Source: Georgenia sp. EYE_87 (lineage in GTDB: Bacteria; Actinomycetota; Actinomycetes; Actinomycetales; Actinomycetaceae). Taken from it: 64,000 nt of DNA. Shown piece by piece: positions 1,871 through 64,000 of the stretch. The position numbers were made by a program, and so were the translations under genes. The stretch lies in assembly GCF_023148685.1 (NCBI RefSeq), contig NZ_JAHXNL010000011.1, positions 53,184-117,183 on the forward strand. The letters are read 5' to 3'. Within the stretch, counting starts at the first letter, position 1. Each line of letters starts with the position of its first letter. The notes beneath the pieces were generated by a model. It worked only from the letters and a program-made list of their open reading frames with translations. It ran no database searches and was not told the origin of the DNA.

Positions 1871-1949
1871 GCGCGCGCCGGCCCCGCCGGGAGCGGCGCC
1901 GCAGTCTCGACGTCGGGGGCGCTGGCACAGGTCGTGGGCGTGCGTACGG

Positions 1950-1985
1950 AAAAGCCCGAACCCCTCGGACCGAGGGGTTCGGGCT
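1950..1985 (-). terminator. Terminator of tRNA-Ser(GCT)
   Basis: agcccgaacccctcgg (1953-1968) is complementary to ccgaggggttcgggct (1970-1985). On the minus strand the stem is followed by TTTT, a classic intrinsic terminator placed 30 bases beyond the tRNA 3' end. It also faces the end of the VOC gene and may serve both. Confidence 0.85.
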
Positions 1986-2014
1986 GTCCGCGATGCCCTG
2001 CGACATCACACGAG

Positions 2015-2103
2015 CGGAGACGGTGGGATTTGAACCCACGGACGGGTTACCCCGTCACATCCTTAGCAGGGATGCGCACTAGACCAGACTATGCGACGTC
2101 TCC
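2015..2103 (-). tRNA. tRNA-Ser (anticodon GCT)
   Basis: An 89-base class II tRNA on the minus strand: acceptor GGAGACG/CGTCTCC with discriminator G, anticodon loop CTGCTAA giving GCT, a long variable arm (gacggggtaacccgtc region) and T-loop GGTTCAAATCC. CCA is not encoded. Confidence 0.97.
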
Positions 2104-2165
2104 CGGTCACCGGACAGGTTACCCAACGACCGGCTCACGGGCCAAAACTGCCGGACGGGCGGTCG

Positions 2166-2695
2166 CTAGGGCATGCGACGCCGCGCCAGACGGGGGTATC
2201 TCGCAGCGAGCGCGGCGACGTTGCTCTCGTCGAACGGCTCGCCGCGAGGTGCGCCGTCGGGATCCTCGATCACGAGGTCGCCGCCGACGTCCTGCTGCGC
2301 GTCACGCCCTGTGCGCCGCTCGTAGACATCCGCGGCGACGTAAGAGAGGAGCTCGGCGTCGGTGGCCTCCTCGACGTCCCTCGGCCCGAGGCGTGCCAAC
2401 AGGTCCGGCTCGGCGAGCACCTGACGACACACCCGTGACCCGCGGGAGACGAGCCACGAGCGCAGGTCGGTAAAGGTGTCGTCACCGCAGCCGCCGAAGA
2501 TCACGAAGGCCGCGCCCCACAGGTCCCAGGTGTAGAGCCGGTGGTTGGCCGCGACGAACTGGGTGTGGAAGCCGAGCACGCCCTCCACCGGCAGTGGTCA
2601 AGGATCGTCTCGAGCACGGCGGCCTGCCGCTCCACGCTCCCCACGGACGCCCACCGGCTCGCGCTGACGATCCGCCAGAACTGTCGCTCGTCCAC
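2166..2695 (-). pseudogene. DUF4240 protein gene interrupted by a frameshift
   Basis: Read from a GTG at 2695 (preceded by GGAGGAGGAG), the first frame encodes VDERQFWRIVSASRWASVGS and continues to LETILDHC near 2600. The rest of the family, from EGVLGFHTQFVAANHRLYTW through DLWGAAFVIFGGCGDDTF and FRSWL-type residues, lies in a different frame ending at 2166. Joining them needs one extra base around 2590-2605, i.e. a one-base deletion in the gene or in the assembly. DUF4240 function is unknown. The gene sits between tRNA-Ser(GCT) and tRNA-Ser(TGA). Only the second part could be made from an internal start. Confidence 0.75.
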
Positions 2696-2849
2696 CGTGC
2701 TCCTCCTCCGCCCGGCGGAAACGTTAGCCGCTCCGCTGCGTGGCGAAGCTCCACGCGTGGGACACCCCGACGACGTCGTCGAGGTGCTCACCGCACCGGC
2801 TGCCCAGCGGCCGGGCTTCCTCGATCGGCTGCCGGGTCGCGGCCGCTGG

Positions 2850-2937
2850 CGGAGGGCAAGGGATTCGAACCCTTGGTGCGGGGTTACCGCACAACGGTTT
2901 TCAAGACCGTCACATTCGGCCGCTCTGTCAGCCCTCC
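2850..2937 (-). tRNA. tRNA-Ser (anticodon TGA)
   Basis: An 88-base class II tRNA on the minus strand: acceptor GGAGGGC/GCCCTCC with discriminator G, anticodon loop CTTGAAA giving TGA, long variable arm (tgcggtaaccccgca) and T-loop GGTTCGAATCC. CCA is not encoded. About 750 bases separate it from tRNA-Ser(GCT). Confidence 0.97.
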
Positions 2938-3179
2938 CTGCCCCGGCGTCGACCGCCCGGCCCAGCGTTGCCAGAAGACTCCGTACCGGGATGCGGTACA
3001 AGCCCTTCTGTCAGGGCGGCGGGCCGAGGTGGTCGGCCGAGGCGCGCACCAGTGTAGGTGAGCGGAACCTCCGGTCCCGCGCCGTGGCCGCACAGACGCG
3101 GCCGGGACGGCGGCGCGGCACGTCCTCCCGCCCACGGGCGCGGCTCGGCCGGCAAGGCCACCTCGGGCACGATGGGCCC

Positions 3180-4148
3180 ATGCGCGCCATCACCATCACC
3201 GACGACTCCGACTTGCTGCTCACCGACGTCCCCGACCCGCGGCCCGGCCCCGCCGAGGTGCTCGTGCGGGTGGCCGCCGCGGGCGTGAACCGGGCCGACC
3301 TCCTCCAGCGCGCCGGCCACTACCCGCCCCCGCCGGGGGCCAGCGAGATCCTCGGCCTGGAGGTCTCCGGCACTGTCGTCGCCGTCGGCGACGGCGTCAC
3401 CGGCTGGGCCGAGGGAGACGAGGTGTGCGCCCTTCTCGCCGGCGGCGGCTACGCCGAGCTGGTCGCGGTGCCCGCCGGCCAGCTGCTCCCCGCCCCGGCC
3501 GGGCTGGATCTCATCGACGCCGCCGCGCTCCCGGAGGCCGTGTGCACCGCCTGGTCGAACCTTGTCGGCACCGGGGGGCTGCGGGCGGGCGAGACGGTGC
3601 TGGTCCACGGCGGCTCCGGCGGGGTGGGCTCGGCGGCGATCCAGCTCGCCGCCTCCGTCGGGGCGCGGGTGCTGACGACGGCCGGGGGGCCGGAGCGGGC
3701 GGCCAGGTGCCGCGAGCTGGGCGCCGACGTCGCCATCGACCACCGCGCGCAGGACGTCGCCGCCGCCGTGGCGGCGGCGACGGACGGCCGCGGCGTCGAC
3801 GTGATCCTCGACGTGCTGGGCGCCGGCGGGCTGGACCAGAACGTGCGTAGCCTCGCCACCGGCGGCCGCCTCGTGGTCATCGGCACCCAGAAGGGCCGCA
3901 AGGGCGAGATCGATCTCGGCCGGCTGATGACGAAGCGGGCCAGCGTCCACGCCACCACGCTGCGCGCCCGACCGCTGGAGGAGAAGGCGGCGATCGTCGC
4001 CGACGTGCGCGAGCGAGCCTGGCCCCTGCTCGAGGACGGGCGCCTGCGCCCCGTGGTCGCCGAGCGGCTGCCGCTCGCGGAGGCGGCCCGGGCGCACGAG
4101 CTGCTCGACTCCGGCGCTGTGTTCGGCAAGGTGCTGCTGGTCCCCTGA
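3180..4148 (+). CDS. NAD(P)H-quinone oxidoreductase, zinc-independent MDR family (PIG3-like)
   Basis: 322 residues. An alcohol-dehydrogenase-like GroES N-terminal domain (about 25-110, with AAGVNRADLLQRAGHYPPPP) is followed by a Rossmann domain with the nucleotide-binding loop HGGSGGVGSAAIQLA (about 140-155). The catalytic and structural zinc cysteines of true alcohol dehydrogenases are absent, as in quinone oxidoreductases, which reduce quinones one electron at a time with NADPH. The start is the ATG at 3180, where the family N-terminus MRAITIT begins; a longer open frame upstream has no family similarity. A CACGAT box six bases before it suggests a leaderless message. Confidence 0.9.
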   Translation: MRAITITDDSDLLLTDVPDPRPGPAEVLVRVAAAGVNRADLLQRAGHYPPPPGASEILGLEVSGTVVAVGDGVTGWAEGDEVCALLAGGGYAELVAVPAGQLLPAPAGLDLIDAAALPEAVCTAWSNLVGTGGLRAGETVLVHGGSGGVGSAAIQLAASVGARVLTTAGGPERAARCRELGADVAIDHRAQDVAAAVAAATDGRGVDVILDVLGAGGLDQNVRSLATGGRLVVIGTQKGRKGEIDLGRLMTKRASVHATTLRARPLEEKAAIVADVRERAWPLLEDGRLRPVVAERLPLAEAARAHELLDSGAVFGKVLLVP

Positions 4149-57833: not shown

Positions 57834-58064
57834 ATGGGGATCGGTGGAGGCATCTTCCTCATCGTGATCGGGGCGATCCTGGCCTTCGCGGTGTCCGACG
57901 TCATCGAGGGCGTCGACCTGTCGATGATCGGCTACATCTGCATGGGCGCCGGCGTGATCGCACTCGTCATCGCGCTGATCATGCACAGCCAGCGCACGAA
58001 CACCACCCACACCGAGCGCGTCGAGCGCCGCGACGACCGTCACATCCACGGCGACGGCGTCTGA
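57834..58064 (+). CDS. Small two-TM membrane protein (DUF6458-like)
   Basis: 76 residues: MGIGGGIFLIVIGAILAFAV is the first helix, MIGYICMGAGVIALVIALIM the second, with a short acidic loop (SDVIEGVDLS) and a charged His/Arg-rich cytoplasmic tail (THTERVERRDDRHIHGDG). This is the pattern of the DUF6458 family of actinobacteria, function unknown. GAGGAGCG precedes ATG 57834. A strong terminator follows, so it is probably monocistronic. Confidence 0.85.
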   Translation: MGIGGGIFLIVIGAILAFAVSDVIEGVDLSMIGYICMGAGVIALVIALIMHSQRTNTTHTERVERRDDRHIHGDGV

Positions 58065-58194: not shown

Positions 58195-58200
58195 TAGCGT
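58195..58200 (+). promoter_or_regulatory. Leaderless -10 box of the App1-like gene
   Basis: TAGCGT, seven bases before ATG 58208; decides the start over GTG 58199. Confidence 0.5.
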
Positions 58201-58207
58201 GGGACCC

Positions 58208-59311
58208 ATGGGACTGTCCCGCTTCGCCTCCGCCGTCGAGGACGCCATCAACCGCCGCAGCGTCGCCTACCTCCGGGACAAGGGCTGGCGGCCTCGCATC
58301 ATCGGCCTGACCGGTTACGGCTCCGTCCAGAGCCTGCACGTCCTCGGGCGCGTGATCATGGCCGACCCGCAGGTGGAGGCCGAGGACCCGGAGGCGCTGG
58401 AGCGGGCCGCCCCCCTCGGGCCGATCAACGTGGCTGCCGAGGCGCAGCGGGGCTGGCGCTCCTTCTTCACCGCACAGGTGGGTTTCCTGCCCGTCACCGT
58501 GCACGCCAACGGGCAGTCGATCCGCACCCTGACCGACCGTGGCGGCTACCTCGACGTAATGGTCCGGGACCACGGTCTCGAGCCCGGCTGGCACGAGGTG
58601 ACCATTGAGGCGGCGGCCGCGCAGCCGGTCACCGCCAAGGTGCTGGTGGTGGACCCGAGCGTGCGGGCCGGGATCGTCTCCGACATCGACGACACGATCA
58701 TGGTCACGATGCTCCCGCGCGCCCTGATCGCCGCCTGGAACACCTTCGTGCGCCACACCTCCACCCGGAAGGCCGTCCCCGGCATGGCGGACCTGTACCG
58801 GAAGCTCCTCTCCGAGCACCCGACCGCACCGATCTTCTACCTCTCCACCGGCGCGTGGAACACGGTCCCGACGCTGCGGCGGTTCATGGACAGGAACGGC
58901 TACCCCGAGGGCCCGATGCTCATGACGGACTGGGGACCGACGCCCACCGGCTTCTTCCGCTCCGGCATCGAGCACAAGCGCACCCAGCTGCGGAACCTGC
59001 TGATCACGTTCCCGGACATCAACTGGGTGCTCGTCGGCGACGACGGCCAGCACGACCCGATGATCTACGACGAGCTGGCCCGCGAGCACCCCCGGCACAT
59101 CGCCGCCATCGCGATCCGGCAGCTCTCGCCGGCGGAGCAGGTGCTGGCGCACGGCACCCCGGAGGCGATCGAGCAGCCGCCCGCCCTGCGCAACGCGACG
59201 GCGGAGCACGGCGTGCCGACGGTCCAGGGTCGCGACGGGCACGCGCTGGCCACGGCGCTGCCCGAGGTCGTGGCCGAGCGGACCCACACGCTGGTGGCGC
59301 TCGACGACTGA
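58208..59311 (+). CDS. App1-like phosphatidate phosphatase (DUF2183)
   Basis: 367 residues. The catalytic DxDxT motif is IVSDIDDTIMVTMLPRALIA (~155-175), followed by TSTRKAVPGMADLYRKL, FYLSTGAWNTVPTLRRFM and LVGDDGQHDPMIYDELA, the conserved App1 blocks. An N-terminal ~150-residue beta-rich region (SFFTAQVGFLPVTVHANGQ) is typical of the bacterial members. By homology to yeast App1 it dephosphorylates phosphatidate; the bacterial role is unproven. ATG 58208 is set by the -10 box. Convergent with the M23 gene. Confidence 0.9.
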   Translation: MGLSRFASAVEDAINRRSVAYLRDKGWRPRIIGLTGYGSVQSLHVLGRVIMADPQVEAEDPEALERAAPLGPINVAAEAQRGWRSFFTAQVGFLPVTVHANGQSIRTLTDRGGYLDVMVRDHGLEPGWHEVTIEAAAAQPVTAKVLVVDPSVRAGIVSDIDDTIMVTMLPRALIAAWNTFVRHTSTRKAVPGMADLYRKLLSEHPTAPIFYLSTGAWNTVPTLRRFMDRNGYPEGPMLMTDWGPTPTGFFRSGIEHKRTQLRNLLITFPDINWVLVGDDGQHDPMIYDELAREHPRHIAAIAIRQLSPAEQVLAHGTPEAIEQPPALRNATAEHGVPTVQGRDGHALATALPEVVAERTHTLVALDD

Positions 59312-59332: not shown

Positions 59333-60403
59333 TCAGGCCGGCCGGGCCACCCGCGTCCCGGGCAGCGCGACGCCCTGCGCCGCGAGGAAGGCGATCGGGT
59401 CGACCGGCGTGCCGTCGACCCGCACCTCGAAGTGCAGGTGCGGCCCGGTGGAGTTGCCGGAGGATCCCACGCGCGCCACCTGCTGGCCGGCGGTCACCGT
59501 GTCGCCCACGCGCACGAGGATCCCGTTGGGCCAGGGGTGGACGTACCGCGTCTGCACGCCGCCGCCGTGGTCGACGGCGACCATGTATCCGCTGTTGCCG
59601 CCGGAGGACGGGCCGGCGATGACCACGATCCCGTCGGCCGCCGCGTAGATGGGGTGCCCGTCCACCGCCGCGAGGTCGGCACCGGCGTGCAGCGTGCGCA
59701 TCCCGGTGATCGGGTGCGTGCGCACCCCGAACGCGGAGGTGTAGCGCACGTTGCCGAGGATCGGCGAGGTCCACCCCTGGGCCGTGACCGCACCCGCGCT
59801 CAGCGCGCTGCAGGGGCTCGGCCCCGCCGCCGCGGCGATGGCCTCCAGGTCCTCCCCCGCCAGCGCGGTCACGACGGCGACGGCGTCGCGCCAGTACCGC
59901 TCGTAGTGGTACGGGTCGGCGTTGCCCTGCACCCGGTGGGCCACGATCGTCGGCGGCTGGGTCGTGCGGTCGGCGAGGGTGGCGAGCCGGCGGAAGAACA
60001 TCGTCGCGGAGGTGGCGGGGTCCATCCGCTGCGCCTCGGAGCCCCACGCGCCGTTGTCCCGCTGCTGGAACAGCCCGCGGGAGTCGGGCCCGGCCGCGTC
60101 GCCGCGGTCGAGCACCTCGAGCCCGGACTCGCCCATCGCCGTCATGACGCCGATGGTCTGGTCGCGCACCGACAGCCCGAGGTCCGCGCCGGCGTTGATG
60201 ATCGCGGCGGCGTTCGCGAGCTGCACGCCGCTGTAGCCGTTGACCTCGCCCTCGGGGGCCGCGGCGAGCCTGACGCGCACCCCCGGCCCGTCCACGTTGC
60301 AGGTGGCCTGGTCGTCCTGCGCGTCGATGTAGAGCACCAGCGTCAACGAGCCCACGAGGACGGACGCCAGCGCCAGGACCAGCACGAGGAGTGCGCGGCG
60401 CAC
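59333..60403 (-). CDS. Cell-wall hydrolase with SLT-like region and M23 endopeptidase domain (conjugation-type)
   Basis: 356 residues. An N-terminal membrane anchor/signal (LLVLVLALASVLVGSLTLVL) leads to a lysozyme/SLT-like segment (~75-160: IGVMTAMGESGLEVLDRGDA, SRGLFQQRDNGAWG) and a M23 lysostaphin-type domain (~225-335) with AFGVRTHPITGMRTLHAGAD (zinc His and Asp), YVHPWPNG and HLHFEVRV. It would cut glycan and peptide bonds outside the membrane. Such two-activity hydrolases open the wall for Gram-positive conjugation machines. GTG 60403 immediately follows the lipoprotein stop by one base, so the two genes are coupled. Confidence 0.9.
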   Translation of the reverse strand: MRRALLVLVLALASVLVGSLTLVLYIDAQDDQATCNVDGPGVRVRLAAAPEGEVNGYSGVQLANAAAIINAGADLGLSVRDQTIGVMTAMGESGLEVLDRGDAAGPDSRGLFQQRDNGAWGSEAQRMDPATSATMFFRRLATLADRTTQPPTIVAHRVQGNADPYHYERYWRDAVAVVTALAGEDLEAIAAAAGPSPCSALSAGAVTAQGWTSPILGNVRYTSAFGVRTHPITGMRTLHAGADLAAVDGHPIYAAADGIVVIAGPSSGGNSGYMVAVDHGGGVQTRYVHPWPNGILVRVGDTVTAGQQVARVGSSGNSTGPHLHFEVRVDGTPVDPIAFLAAQGVALPGTRVARPA

Positions 60404-60404
60404 G

Positions 60405-60953
60405 TCAGCCCTGCCCTTCCGGCGGGACGACGCGCTCGACGAGCCACGGCGTCGGACCGTCCTGGCGTGAGAGCAGCACCTGCACCGTGCCGGCGTCCGT
60501 CGGGACGTCGACCCGCGCCAGGTACACGCTCGGCTCGTCGGCCACCGCGGGCTCGCCCGTCACCTCCCGGGCGAGGATGGCGCCCGGCTGGAGCCACTGG
60601 TAGTCCCGCTGCGCCGTCGGGGTGAGGAACACGGAGAGCTCGTCGAACCAGCGCGGGGCGGGCAGGTCGGGCCGGGCCCACGCCCGCACCGCGTCCCCCG
60701 CCACCTGGCGGGCCTGCGCTCGGGACGTCTCGTCCCACACCGGCACCTGCGCCCCGGTGACCGGCTCCTCCGGCTCGTCCATCGGCTCGCCCGCCGGCGG
60801 GGCCGGGACCGGGACGGGGGACGGCGGGAGCACCGTGCCGGTCGCCGTCGCCGTCTCGTCGGGGCCCGGCCGGGGCTCGGGACCACCGGGGAGGCAGCCA
60901 CCCAGCACGAGGGCGAGCACCAGCACGCCGACGCCCGCTCCGCCTGCACGCAT
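60405..60953 (-). CDS. Uncharacterised lipoprotein of the conjugation-like locus
   Basis: 182 residues. Signal peptide with lipobox ALVLGGCLPG (Cys ~20), a Pro/Glu-rich spacer (PPSPVPVPAPPAGEPMDEPE), then a ~115-residue globular part (WDETSRAQARQVAGDAVRAW, RWFDELSVFLTPTAQRDYQW, VQVLLSRQDGPTPWLVERVV). The fold pattern suggests an NTF2/VirB8-like or TcpC-like domain of T4SS outer parts, but I cannot prove it. Upstream gene of the two-gene unit with the M23 hydrolase; divergent from the plus-strand T4SS-like genes. Confidence 0.75.
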   Translation of the reverse strand: MRAGGAGVGVLVLALVLGGCLPGGPEPRPGPDETATATGTVLPPSPVPVPAPPAGEPMDEPEEPVTGAQVPVWDETSRAQARQVAGDAVRAWARPDLPAPRWFDELSVFLTPTAQRDYQWLQPGAILAREVTGEPAVADEPSVYLARVDVPTDAGTVQVLLSRQDGPTPWLVERVVPPEGQG

Positions 60954-61027
60954 GCGACCTCCGTCCCGCTCCGACGCGGCCCGGGCGGCGGCGATCCCCG
61001 TCCGCCCTGTTTTGCTTGCGTCATCCA

Positions 61028-61043
61028 GGTGACCATGATCACG
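61028..61043. promoter_or_regulatory. CRP/GlxR-like site in the divergent promoter region
   Basis: gGTGA-CCATGA-TCACg matches the CRP/GlxR pattern TGTGA-N6-TCACA in both half-sites except the outer base. It lies in the 157-base gap between the divergent lipoprotein and DUF6668 genes, about 80 bases from each start. Confidence 0.4.
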
Positions 61044-61110
61044 TAGGCACTGCATGATGGTGATCCGATCAGGACCGTCTCCGGACGCAACCCTTCGAAG
61101 GACGCACATG

Positions 61111-61680
61111 ATGGGTAGCCATCCACGGCTCGAGCACCGCGACGACGTCGCCGGTGCCGCCGCCCGTTTCCTCGTGCCGACGGGCCCGGCGATGCCGCAG
61201 CGCGGAGTGCCGTCGCCGGCGAACGGGCTGCCGGCCCGGGTGCGCACCGAGCGCCCCGCGCCGTGGTGGCTGGGCACGCACGGCGGCGCCGGGGAGTCCA
61301 CGCTCGCCGGGCTCGTCCCGAGCTCCGGCGCGGCCGGGCACGCCTGGCCCCTCCCCCGCGACGTCGACGACGTCCAGCCGGTCGTCCTCGTCGCCCGCAC
61401 CAGCCTGCGCGGCCTGGAGAGCGCCCGCGTCGCCGCCACCCAGTGGGCGGCCGGCGACGTGCTCGGCGTCGAGCTGCTCGGCCTCGTGCTCATGGCCGAC
61501 GCCCCGGGTCGCCTTCCCCGCCCGCTGCGCGACCTCGCCCACCACGTCGCCGGAGGCGTCCCCCGCGTGTGGTCCGTGCCGTGGGTCGAGGCGTGGCGCT
61601 CTGGCGGCGACGCCGCGCCGCACGCCCTCACGGTGCTCCGGCGCGACCTCACCACCCTCCTGCCCGGCCAGGAGGCCTGA
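61111..61680 (+). CDS. DUF6668 family protein with degenerate P-loop (ParA/MinD-like)
   Basis: 189 residues. The core WWLGTHGGAGESTLAGLVP looks like a ParA/MinD Walker A whose lysine positions are replaced (GGxGES rather than GKGGxGKS); VQPVVLVARTSLRGLESARV and VLGVELLGLVLMADAPGRLP match later strands of the fold, and the end PHALTVLRRDLTTLLPG is helical. ATP hydrolysis is therefore doubtful. Members accompany actinobacterial conjugation genes. ATG 61111 is chosen: GAAGGA is eight bases upstream; ATG 61108 is nearly as good. Followed by the two-TM protein after one base. Confidence 0.8.
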   Translation: MGSHPRLEHRDDVAGAAARFLVPTGPAMPQRGVPSPANGLPARVRTERPAPWWLGTHGGAGESTLAGLVPSSGAAGHAWPLPRDVDDVQPVVLVARTSLRGLESARVAATQWAAGDVLGVELLGLVLMADAPGRLPRPLRDLAHHVAGGVPRVWSVPWVEAWRSGGDAAPHALTVLRRDLTTLLPGQEA

Positions 61681-61681
61681 C

Positions 61682-61975
61682 GTGCTCGGCTCCGCCGTCG
61701 GCGCGCTGACCGCCGCCACCCTGACCCTGGCCAACGTGCCGGATCCCGGCCAGGGCGAGGCCCCGCCGGGCATGGAGGGCTTCCTGCAGCTGCTCTCGTG
61801 GACCAAGTGGATCGCGCTGGGCGTCTGCGTGCTCGGCCTGATGGTCGCCGGGGCGCTCATGGCGGTCAACGCGCGGCGCGGCGAGGGCGGCGAGCACCTC
61901 GGTCGCATCGGCATGGCCCTGGCGGGCGTGGTCGTCATCTCCGGCGCCTACTTCGTCGTCGGCGCGCTGGCGTAG
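61682..61975 (+). CDS. Small two-TM protein (TrbC/VirB2 pilin-sized) of the T4SS-like locus
   Basis: 97 residues. After a short extracytoplasmic start come WTKWIALGVCVLGLMVAGAL and GMALAGVVVISGAYFVVGAL, two helices joined by a positively charged loop NARRGEGGEHLGRI. Size and topology are those of VirB2/TrbC-like subunits, though the sequence is unlike Gram-negative pilins. The helix-loop-helix unit is repeated in the TrbL-like protein downstream (LGRVGVVLGGVVLISGAS). GTG 61682 begins one base after the DUF6668 stop. Confidence 0.8.
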   Translation: MLGSAVGALTAATLTLANVPDPGQGEAPPGMEGFLQLLSWTKWIALGVCVLGLMVAGALMAVNARRGEGGEHLGRIGMALAGVVVISGAYFVVGALA

Positions 61976-61983
61976 GAGCGGAC

Positions 61984-62748
61984 GTGCCGGCGGACGAGGG
62001 GCGCAGCGTGTGGACGCGCCCGGCGTTCGTGGGGTCCGCGGTGCTGCTCCTGGCCCTGGCCATCCTGGCCGTCTGGCTCCTCACCCGCGGCGACGGCGCC
62101 CCCGCCGGTCCCGGCTCCGCCGCCTCGCCCAGCGCGACGGAGGCTCCGACGTCGGGGCGGACGGGGACGGCCGACGCGCCGACCACCGCCCCGCCGTCGC
62201 CCCGGCCCTCCGTGTGCGGGCTGACGGCGGAGGCCGACTCCGGCACCCTGACCCGCGCGCCCGAGGCCGGCTGGGAGCTCGTCGGCACGGTCGCGGCGCC
62301 GTCGGTCGAGGGCATGGGGCCCGGGGCGGTCGAGGACGGCCTGCGCACCTGCTACGCCCGCACGCCCACCGGCGCGCTGCTCGCCGCCGCGAACGTCGCG
62401 GCCATGGGCTCGAACGCCACCCTCGTCGAGCGGATGACGGCGGAGATGACCGCCGAGGGCCCGGGCCGCGAGGCCGCCCTGGAGCGGATCGCCGACGAGG
62501 GCGCCCCCGCCGTGCCCGGTGCCGTGCGCTACCAGATCCGCGGCTTCCGGCTCCTGGACTACTCCGGCACCGAGGCGTCCGTGGACCTGGCGCTGGGCGT
62601 CGACGGCGGCCTGACCGGCAGCTTCGTGCTCGACCTGCGCTGGGAGGACGGCGACTGGAAGGTGGTCCTCACCGACGACGGCGGGCTCGGCAGCCTCCCC
62701 GCCCCGGTGCCCGACCTGACCGGCTACACCCTGTGGTCGGGGGCGTGA
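61984..62748 (+). CDS. Single-pass membrane protein of the T4SS-like locus
   Basis: 254 residues. A short cytoplasmic start (VPADEGRSVWTRP), one membrane helix (AVLLLALAILAVWLLT), a Ser/Thr/Pro linker (~35-75) and an extracytoplasmic domain starting at VCGLTAEADSGTLTRAPEAG, with GWELVGTVAAPSVEGMGPG and LRWEDGDWKVVLTDDGGLGS. The layout (helix, linker, small domain) recalls VirB8/TcpC-like assembly factors; sequence alone does not confirm it. Its stop shares a base with the next start (TGATG). Confidence 0.75.
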   Translation: MPADEGRSVWTRPAFVGSAVLLLALAILAVWLLTRGDGAPAGPGSAASPSATEAPTSGRTGTADAPTTAPPSPRPSVCGLTAEADSGTLTRAPEAGWELVGTVAAPSVEGMGPGAVEDGLRTCYARTPTGALLAAANVAAMGSNATLVERMTAEMTAEGPGREAALERIADEGAPAVPGAVRYQIRGFRLLDYSGTEASVDLALGVDGGLTGSFVLDLRWEDGDWKVVLTDDGGLGSLPAPVPDLTGYTLWSGA

Positions 62749-64000
62749 TGGCCGCCGACCCGACCGCTCCCCCCGCCGCCCCGCCGGGCGGCTGCGACCC
62801 GCTGGACGTCACCTGCGCGACGTCGACCTGGACCGCCGACGGCGGCGCCACCGCGCTGGACCAGCTCGGCGCCGCCGTCGCCGAGGCGCTGGACACGACG
62901 CTCGCCTCGCTCGGCACCATGTGGGAGAACGTGGCCACCCCCACCCTGACGGGGAGCGGCACCGGGGCCGTGGCGCCCGGCGACGTCGCACCCGGCTCGG
63001 TGCAGGCCGTCGAGACGGTCCTGGGCTGGGTGGTGTGGGTCTCCCTCGGCGTCGCCATGCTGTCCCTGCTCGCCCTGGGCGCCTGGCTCGCGCTGGCCGG
63101 GCGGCGCGGCGACGGCGAGCGCCACCTCGGCCGCGTCGGCGTCGTCCTGGGCGGGGTCGTCCTGATCTCCGGCGCGTCCGCGCTGGTCGGGGCGCTGGTG
63201 CCGCCGGAGCGGTTCGCGGGCGGCTCCGCGCCCGTCGCCTCCACGCAGAACGCCCTGTGGTGGTTCACGGCGGCGATGGCGGTGCTCTCCGTGATCGTGG
63301 CGGGGGCGAAGATGGCGTGGGAGCAGCGGGCGGCGCCCGGGCGGGACCTCGTGCGCTCGCTGCTCACGCTCGTGGTGGTGGCCGGCGCCGGGCTGACGGT
63401 CATCGGGCTCGCCGTCGTCGCGGCCGACGCCTTCGCCCTGTGGCTGCTCGACCGGGTCACCGGCGGCGCCGACTTCTCCGCGCGGGTGCGGGAGATGGTG
63501 GTGCTCTCCGACTCCCTCGGCGTGCTGCTCGTGATCGTCCTGGGCCTGCTCGCGGTGGTGGTCGCGTTCGTGCAGATCATGCTGCTGGTCCTGCGCGGCG
63601 CGATGCTCGTCATCCTGGCCGGGATCTTCCCGCTCTCGGCGGCGTTCACCAACACCGCGGTGGGCCGGGCCTGGTTCTCCCGGGTGGTCTCCTGGATCGT
63701 CGCGTTCGTGCTGTACAAGCCGGCCGTGGCCATCGTCTACGCCACCGCGTTCCAGCTCACCGACACCGGCCTCGTCACCGACGACGGCACCGGGCTCGTC
63801 CCGCTGCTCGCCGGCATCATCCTCATGGTCCTGGCGCTGCTGGCGCTGCCCGCGCTGATGTCCGTGGCCGCGCCCCTGATCGGCACCGTGACCCCGGGCG
63901 GCGCGCCCGCCGCGGCCGCGCTGCCGCCGGGCACGTCCGCGGCGCTGCCCACGGGGGCTGCTGCGGCCCACCGGGTGCGCCCCGCCGCCGCGCCCGCCGC
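62748..64000 (+). CDS. TrbL/VirB6-like multi-TM conjugation protein (3' end outside window)
   Basis: At least 417 residues; no stop before the edge. The extracytoplasmic start contains CDPLDVTCATSTWTADGGAT, then about seven helices: VVWVSLGVAMLSLLALGAWL, VVLGGVVLISGASALVGALV, WWFTAAMAVLSVIVAGAKMA, LLTLVVVAGAGLTVIGLAVV, VLLVIVLGLLAVVVAFVQIM and LVLRGAMLVILAGIFPLSAA, followed by a WFSRVVSWIVAFVLYKPAVA segment typical of TrbL-like channel proteins. Near the edge the sequence turns Ala/Pro-rich. It is the inner-membrane component of the T4SS-like machine; the ATPases (VirB4, coupling protein) would be expected beyond the window. Confidence 0.85.
   Translation, partial: MAADPTAPPAAPPGGCDPLDVTCATSTWTADGGATALDQLGAAVAEALDTTLASLGTMWENVATPTLTGSGTGAVAPGDVAPGSVQAVETVLGWVVWVSLGVAMLSLLALGAWLALAGRRGDGERHLGRVGVVLGGVVLISGASALVGALVPPERFAGGSAPVASTQNALWWFTAAMAVLSVIVAGAKMAWEQRAAPGRDLVRSLLTLVVVAGAGLTVIGLAVVAADAFALWLLDRVTGGADFSARVREMVVLSDSLGVLLVIVLGLLAVVVAFVQIMLLVLRGAMLVILAGIFPLSAAFTNTAVGRAWFSRVVSWIVAFVLYKPAVAIVYATAFQLTDTGLVTDDGTGLVPLLAGIILMVLALLALPALMSVAAPLIGTVTPGGAPAAAALPPGTSAALPTGAAAAHRVRPAAAPA

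Follow-up and report, generated by a model that had tools for sequence, protein, structure and literature searches.

A chromosomal type IV secretion locus in Georgenia that encodes a VirB2-like pilin, without a coupling protein gene found beside it

Gene content of the locus

The stretch of 64,000 nucleotides from Georgenia sp. EYE_87 that was analyzed here (hereafter the window) ends in a type IV secretion system (T4SS) locus. An M23/lysozyme-like wall hydrolase and a lipoprotein are encoded on one strand, while a DUF6668 protein, a VirB2-like pilin, a DUF8175 protein, a TrbL/VirB6-like membrane protein, SCO6880 and a VirB4-type ATPase are encoded on the other. The window corresponds to bases 53184-117183 of contig C3 of the source genome (4.35 Mb in 38 contigs), and C3 terminates exactly at 117183. 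The closest named kin of the window proteins are found in G. soli, G. daeguensis, G. muralis and G. subflava. Genes outside the window were called by an in-house codon-score caller.

The wall hydrolase (59333..60403, minus strand) is VirB1-like. It combines an N-terminal transmembrane (TM) segment, a lysozyme-like region with a GES motif that was recognized by eye, and a C-terminal M23 domain (PF01551, 7.2e-30) with HxxxD and HxH motifs; the motifs are intact in an alignment of all five orthologues. The adjoining T4SS lipoprotein (60405..60953, minus strand, lipobox LGGC) falls outside any Pfam family and is possibly VirB8-like; its homologues occupy the equivalent position in plasmid loci. 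Between the two gene sets lies a divergent promoter region (60954..61107), and an alignment of five species revealed the element GCATGATG in all of them. This element is a possible operator, and the helix-turn-helix (HTH) gene of the plasmid cassette described below gave no tblastn match at the Georgenia chromosomal regions that carry it.

On the plus strand, the DUF6668 gene (61108..61680; Pfam DUF6668, 2.5e-14) encodes an altered P-loop, HGGAGES. It is followed after 1 base by the VirB2-like pilin (61682..61975), which comprises two TM helices and an RRGEGGEH loop and matches T4SS_pilin PF18895 at 7e-4; of its 37 family members, 20 match PF04956 and 18 match PF18895 at E<=0.01 (best 1.4e-5 and 5.7e-6). 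After 8 further bases comes DUF8175 (PF26526; 61984..62748), with one TM segment, a predicted NTF2-like domain and a putative VirB8 role. Its gene overlaps by 1 base with that of the TrbL/VirB6-like membrane protein (62748..64000), of which the first 417 codons are present before the contig end cuts it. The initial annotation had already described six divergent, tightly packed genes, and both coordinates and spacings confirm this layout.

The rest of the operon was found on contig C7 of the same genome, within its first 3.4 kb. The first 0.4 kb encode the TrbL tail, the C-terminus of which (HEGDGSRAGNR) resembles that of the G. soli orthologue, and the break between C3 and C7 falls within the glycine-rich part of this tail. 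Next in order are SCO6880 (417-1922), the VirB4-type ATPase (1919-3418), a TerC gene and catabolic genes. SCO6880 matches NF042935 at 3.1e-175. The ATPase matches the C-terminal part of the VirB4 model NF045971 at 5.9e-11, as do two orthologues, and NF045975 at 1.5e-8; both matches lie on the ATPase half of VirB4 and far under the equivalog cut-offs. Its Walker A motif GLPGLGKS and a YFVVLDE motif are present in all five species, and its plasmid relatives are annotated as T4SS or ATP-binding proteins. Extension past 64 kb onto C7 thus identifies the locus as a T4SS: of the ATPase and the coupling protein that the initial annotation had considered downstream, the former is present and the latter absent. 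When the lipoprotein, DUF6668, DUF8175, VirB4 and SCO6880 were searched by sequence against solved structures, none of them found an informative relative, and because of this we only infer that SCO6880 corresponds to VirB3 plus the N-terminal domain of VirB4.

Peculiarities of DUF6668 and TrbL/VirB6

Structure prediction gives DUF6668 the fold of the ParA/MinD ATPases. The deviant Walker A motif of such proteins reads K-GG-x-x-K-[ST]; in DUF6668, however, both signature lysines are replaced by His and Glu, as is the case in all 120 best homologues. The same pair occurs in 46 of the 47 DUF6668 proteins from the loci, the remaining one being a fragment, and the Glu is not universal, since genome G418 has His and Val. 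The AAA protein of the plasmid cassette, unlike DUF6668, has GKGGANKT. DUF6668 would be a ParA-like scaffold, probably devoid of ATPase activity. Our literature search found no paper naming DUF6668.

PF19590 is assigned to the TrbL protein of the window and to 117 of the 120 relatives listed, while its PF04610 match (2.7e-3) is below the curated cut-off; the G. soli orthologue has several TM segments. Residues 77-151 of its N-terminal part (62976..63200, plus strand) form a pilin-like hairpin that was detected by its match to the pilin gene. The pilin profile matches VirB6 in all of the best 120 of 516 homologues at an independent E-value (iE) <=1e-6. Among 69 TrbL proteins taken from loci, 55 carry the hairpin at iE<=1e-3 and 14 score below, including those of Kribbella, Geodermatophilus sabuli (L166) and genomes G144 and G418. 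Judged by its sequence, the TrbL protein is to be counted among the VirB6-like proteins.

Relation to a plasmid conjugation cassette

At E<=1e-60 the ATPase is present on 375 plasmid records out of 72,556; of these 375, 134 are typed conjugative, 107 mobilizable and 134 non-mobilizable. Gene order was examined in one record, pRE117-1 of Glutamicibacter arilaitensis (NC_014549), which is typed conjugative with a MOBP relaxase. One of its strands carries AAA/ParA, M23, lipoprotein and HTH genes; the other carries DUF6668, pilin, DUF8175, TrbL, SCO6880, VirB4, coupling protein and DUF4913, with relaxase and MobC further on. Its pilin and DUF8175 are annotated as hypothetical and were identified via tblastn. 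When 16 pRE117-1 proteins were compared by tblastn, the eight envelope and motor genes matched in all five Georgenia genomes with the locus (split over C3 and C7 in the window's genome), whereas AAA/ParA, HTH, coupling protein, DUF4913, MOBP relaxase, MobC, Fic and one hypothetical protein matched none of the five chromosomal regions. Plasmid and chromosome thus share the gene order and a VirB4 that is 75-78% identical, but AAA/ParA, HTH, coupling protein, DUF4913, MOBP and MobC of the plasmid were not found at the Georgenia locus. On these comparisons, the locus represents the envelope and motor portion of a conjugation cassette from actinobacterial plasmids. The initial view that, apart from the TrbL-like and M23 proteins, nothing matches known T4SS parts was too narrow, as pilin, lipoprotein, DUF6668, DUF8175, SCO6880 and ATPase all belong to this cassette.

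G. soli also has plasmid-like contigs, and the fetched part of one of them, its own 164-kb contig C3, contains AAA/ParA, HTH, coupling protein and DUF4913 genes. On the same contig (L043/L044, 18.1-25.1 kb of the joined stretches) a gene pair of 506 and 115 amino acids was called twice, about 5 kb apart.

Missing DNA-loading genes

At the locus no coupling protein was detected in any of the five genomes with PF12696, PF01580 or tblastn with three cognate coupling proteins. The initial annotation saw neither relaxase nor integrase, and this holds on C3, on C7 and up to 100 kb from each of the four orthologous loci, where PF12696, PF08751, PF03432 and PF00589 gave no match; other relaxase families, serine recombinases and direct repeats were not searched. 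In the five genomes, the coupling proteins are separated from the locus by more than 600 kb or lie on different contigs; for the PF08751 relaxases and the PF00589 integrases the distance exceeds 100 kb, or they too are on different contigs. Of the five, G. soli alone has PF03432 relaxases, which are located on its two smaller contigs, C1 and C3. A coupling protein of the FtsK/TcpA type was considered and rejected: PF01580 matches lie elsewhere, the nearest being partial, under the cut-off and about 46 kb (G005) and 39 kb (G006) distant. Nor did a lenient tblastn for leftovers of the coupling protein, ParA and DUF4913 genes in the chromosomal regions recover more than a single ParA match, at E 0.83.

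Such an arrangement is rare. A species-genome collection contains 318 relatives of the ATPase, and in 78 of the 80 loci listed from named genomes a coupling protein follows within 1.5 kb of VirB4; the exceptions are Georgenia subflava (the locus of G004) and Geodermatophilus sabuli. Among 394 genomes of the class, 25 have the ATPase at E<=1e-120. Apart from the window's genome, 28 matches in 24 genomes remain, and a coupling protein adjoins 26 of them; the two exceptions, G144 and G418, belong to one family, and the G418 contig stops 1 kb past VirB4. In an ATPase tree, a quick one with several long branches, the five Georgenia sequences form one clade within the family (SH-aLRT 99) and the absence of the coupling protein requires three changes, at least two of them on well-supported branches.

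These other loci have features of their own. G144, whose ATPase DNA is closest to Streptomyces plasmids (73-75%), holds two T4SS loci that face each other (L174/L175, about 3.5-24.7 kb), one with and one without a coupling protein. The Geodermatophilus sabuli locus (L166:4325-11485) is smaller, with M23, lipoprotein, pilin, TrbL, SCO6880 and VirB4 genes and no coupling protein, amid apparently ordinary chromosomal genes; DUF6668 and DUF8175 found no match there. Two loci titled as Croceicoccus (L161) and as a Deinococci metagenome-assembled genome (L116) carry the actinobacterial cassette, fall inside actinobacterial clades of the ATPase tree and are probably mis-binned contigs.

Chromosomal site and selection

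The left neighbor of the locus encodes an APP1-type phosphatidate phosphatase (58199..59311, plus strand; PF09949, 3.3e-51), which is present in all nine Georgenia genomes compared. It is preceded by the left anchor of the site, a DUF6458 membrane protein (57834..58064, plus strand; PF20059, 1.1e-15) a gene of whose cluster (c5) was called in eight of nine regions. The synteny comparison places the locus 21 bases to 3.9 kb from APP1 in five of the nine genomes, with intervening genes in three. The other four lack a close VirB4 orthologue in a whole-genome search and show other genes after APP1, G003 displaying only 1.1 kb before its contig ends. In the APP1 protein tree the five locus-bearing genomes form one side (support 99/98), and the distribution fits either a gain in their ancestor or losses elsewhere.

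In each of the five species all eight genes are open, although in the window's genome TrbL is seen only in two pieces. Omega was calculated with a pairwise NG86 script for the 8 genes in 5 of the 10 genome pairs, in which synonymous distances reach about 0.8, and was below 1 for every gene (0.00 to 0.79): VirB4 0.04-0.18, SCO6880 0.03-0.24, pilin 0.08-0.36, lipoprotein up to 0.55 and DUF8175 up to 0.79. There is thus selection against amino-acid change across the genes of the locus. VirB4 is 97, 92 and 88% identical where the neighboring APP1 is 88, 84 and 78% identical. Given this pattern of omega and conservation, the motor appears tightly constrained and the outward-facing parts appear to be drifting or adapting.

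Downstream of the operon, C7 (L071) contains a perfect 23-base inverted repeat with a 12-base loop (3529-3551 and 3564-3586), about 110 bases past the VirB4 stop, which is possibly the operon terminator. A long leader (L071:3587-3904) precedes terC; a yybP-ykoY-type riboswitch was suspected there by eye and dismissed, as no Rfam match reached the gathering score. Further on, catabolic genes for a DmpG-like aldolase, an acetaldehyde dehydrogenase, an aldehyde dehydrogenase and FAA hydrolases (L071:5235-12693) separate the T4SS operon from a GDPD gene; in G. soli a GDPD gene comes directly after the operon.

Discussion

The initial annotation left undecided whether the locus is an integrated conjugative element or a resident system. 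Its position at the same site in five species speaks for the latter, and an integrated conjugative element was rejected since our searches found no relaxase, integrase or coupling protein nearby. We lean, with somewhat more confidence than doubt, towards a chromosomal T4SS that keeps its envelope and motor parts, is resident and non-conjugative, and assembles a VirB2-like pilus powered by VirB4. The gene set, the common site in the five species, the lack of DNA-loading genes, the intact ATPase and hydrolase motifs and the purifying pattern are observed; the function is our inference. The Georgenia machine likely no longer performs mating and instead forms a surface filament or exports protein. 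A machine of this kind that lacks a coupling protein cannot load DNA in the known way, and because both the pilin and its VirB6-borne relative were kept, a pilus or pseudopilus is judged the most likely product.

One might envision the machine as follows. The M23/lysozyme-like protein would open the wall, lipoprotein and DUF8175 would form a VirB8-like part spanning it, and SCO6880 would anchor the VirB4 motor to the membrane. VirB6 might seed pilin polymerization through its own pilin-like hairpin, while DUF6668 would position the machine. With no coupling protein to deliver it, DNA from the cytoplasm would not enter, and the output would be either the pilus itself, for adhesion, or substrates captured outside the membrane after Sec export.

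Several observations weigh against this resident pilus. In the window's genome the operon is split inside TrbL by the contig break, and the window's pilin scores under the Pfam cut-offs. Only VirB4 and SCO6880 exceed APP1 in conservation, while M23, lipoprotein, DUF6668, pilin, DUF8175 and TrbL fall below it (pairs of the window's genome, G000, with G004 and G005); together with the DUF8175 omega of 0.79, this could be read as relaxed constraint. Elsewhere in each of the five locus-bearing genomes another element encodes a coupling protein, which shares 33-35% identity with the cognate type, and G. soli also has cognate coupling proteins on plasmid-like contigs, so that supply in trans is possible. 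Finally, null mutants in the related Streptomyces cluster, affected in SCO6878 or SCO6881, are described as free of sporulation or pigment defects (PMC2782261).

Supply in trans leads to the idea of a conjugation helper, in which the channel half alone serves coupling proteins and relaxases of co-resident integrative elements or plasmids. The five genomes do possess a PF12696 coupling protein elsewhere and a PF08751 relaxase, and the plasmid-like contigs of G. soli carry a cognate coupling protein and PF03432 relaxases. However, in each of the five genomes the elements with those coupling proteins also carry VirB4-like genes of their own, outside G. soli only coupling proteins of a different lineage were found, and a coupling protein also occurs in two of the four genomes lacking the locus; we regard a helper as unlikely. 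Slightly less probable still, in our estimate, is a Ptl-type protein exporter, in which substrates would exit by Sec before a short pilus drives them across the wall. Ptl and Brucella VirB are likewise described without a coupling protein (PMC12857230), and the extracytoplasmic parts of the locus evolve fast. A possible partner or substrate is a large protein, probably secreted, that carries an InhA-like MAM domain and is encoded downstream in four of the five locus-bearing genomes and directly after VirB4 in G004 (L036:14911-17055; L038:472-2577, minus strand; L071:19623-20000). The domain match is 7.4e-10 in G004 and 6.5e-6, under the cut-off, in G005, a signal-like N-terminus is seen in G004 and the window's genome, and the regions of 12-20 kb fetched from each of the four genomes without the locus contain no such protein. 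It is, however, absent from the 40 kb fetched around the G. soli locus (whole genomes were not searched), and no functional link ties it to the machine.

That the locus is the decaying remnant of an integrated element would explain why coupling, relaxase and partition genes are gone and why four of nine genomes lack it. Eight open genes in five species, at synonymous distances of up to about 0.8, an omega below 1 in the pairs computed and a VirB4 that is better conserved than APP1 render this very improbable. DNA uptake, as by the ComB system of Helicobacter, which consists of VirB2-4 and VirB6-10 without VirD4 (PMC12857230), has no direct support here, where no search aimed at uptake genes was made, and deserves equally little credence. 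Two other origins were rejected. As to phages, 18 pattern matches in viral contigs included none related to TrbL, and PHROGs searches with seven of the eight proteins gave many matches for the wall hydrolase, a weak Zot-like one for DUF8175 (6.8e-4) and a weak terminase one for VirB4 (2.7e-3). As to defense systems, PADLOC on five of the eight proteins returned only mads_8 for the ATPase (1.4e-9), which we take as a shared P-loop domain.

Going beyond the resident pilus, we offer a wider proposal that is tentative and perhaps somewhat more apt to fail than to hold. A retired conjugation machine may have become a dedicated surface device: its DNA-loading half would have been lost once in the ancestor of the five species, and its VirB2 pilus would be seeded by a VirB6-fused hairpin and placed by a ParA-like scaffold that does not use ATP. 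The same loss would have occurred separately in Geodermatophilus and in G144/G418 of another actinobacterial family, amounting to a repeated route from gene transfer to resident organelle in actinobacteria. The hairpin in VirB6 also offers a handle on the untested model of VirB6 as a platform for pilus building. A literature search pairing Georgenia with type IV secretion had a Bacillus genome paper as its sole match.

The four VirD4-less systems we compared with the locus are Gram-negative, Helicobacter and Bartonella included, whereas Georgenia is an actinobacterium. These four, Bordetella Ptl, Brucella VirB, Helicobacter ComB and Bartonella Trw, resemble Georgenia in having VirB4 without a coupling protein (PMC12857230). 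As summarized there, VirD4-less systems serve two-step toxin export, DNA uptake or presumably adhesive pili, and under the heading of systems lacking VirD4 this 2025 review lists only Gram-negative ones. In its account, roles of Gram-positive T4SS beyond DNA transfer are a long-standing question, and the one protein exporter named, that of Streptococcus suis, has VirD4 (PMC12857230). Within actinobacteria, cmdABCDEF (SCO4126-4131) of Streptomyces coelicolor is, by its description, likewise a chromosomal cluster with a VirB4-like ATPase, CmdB; its deletion alters sporulation and chromosome segregation, and SCO6878, SCO6880 and SCO6881 of the SCO6871-6884 cluster are reported to resemble cmdB, cmdC and cmdD (PMC2782261). 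Patescibacteria are called unique among monoderms for their conjugative-pilus potential (PMC12857230), and the Gram-positive T4SS classes are said to be without virB2 homologues (PMC12102498). The T4SS of Patescibacteria are described as chromosomal, monoderm, mostly without a linked relaxase and equipped with VirB2-like pilins, as in Georgenia, but they belong to another lineage, their genomes hold coupling protein homologues, rarely near virB4, and some have pilin arrays (PMC12102498). Both for the roles of Gram-positive T4SS beyond DNA transfer and for the presence of VirB2-like pilins outside Patescibacteria, the Georgenia locus offers a test case from a cultivated genus, namely a chromosomal T4SS that combines a VirB2-like pilin with the lack of a coupling protein.

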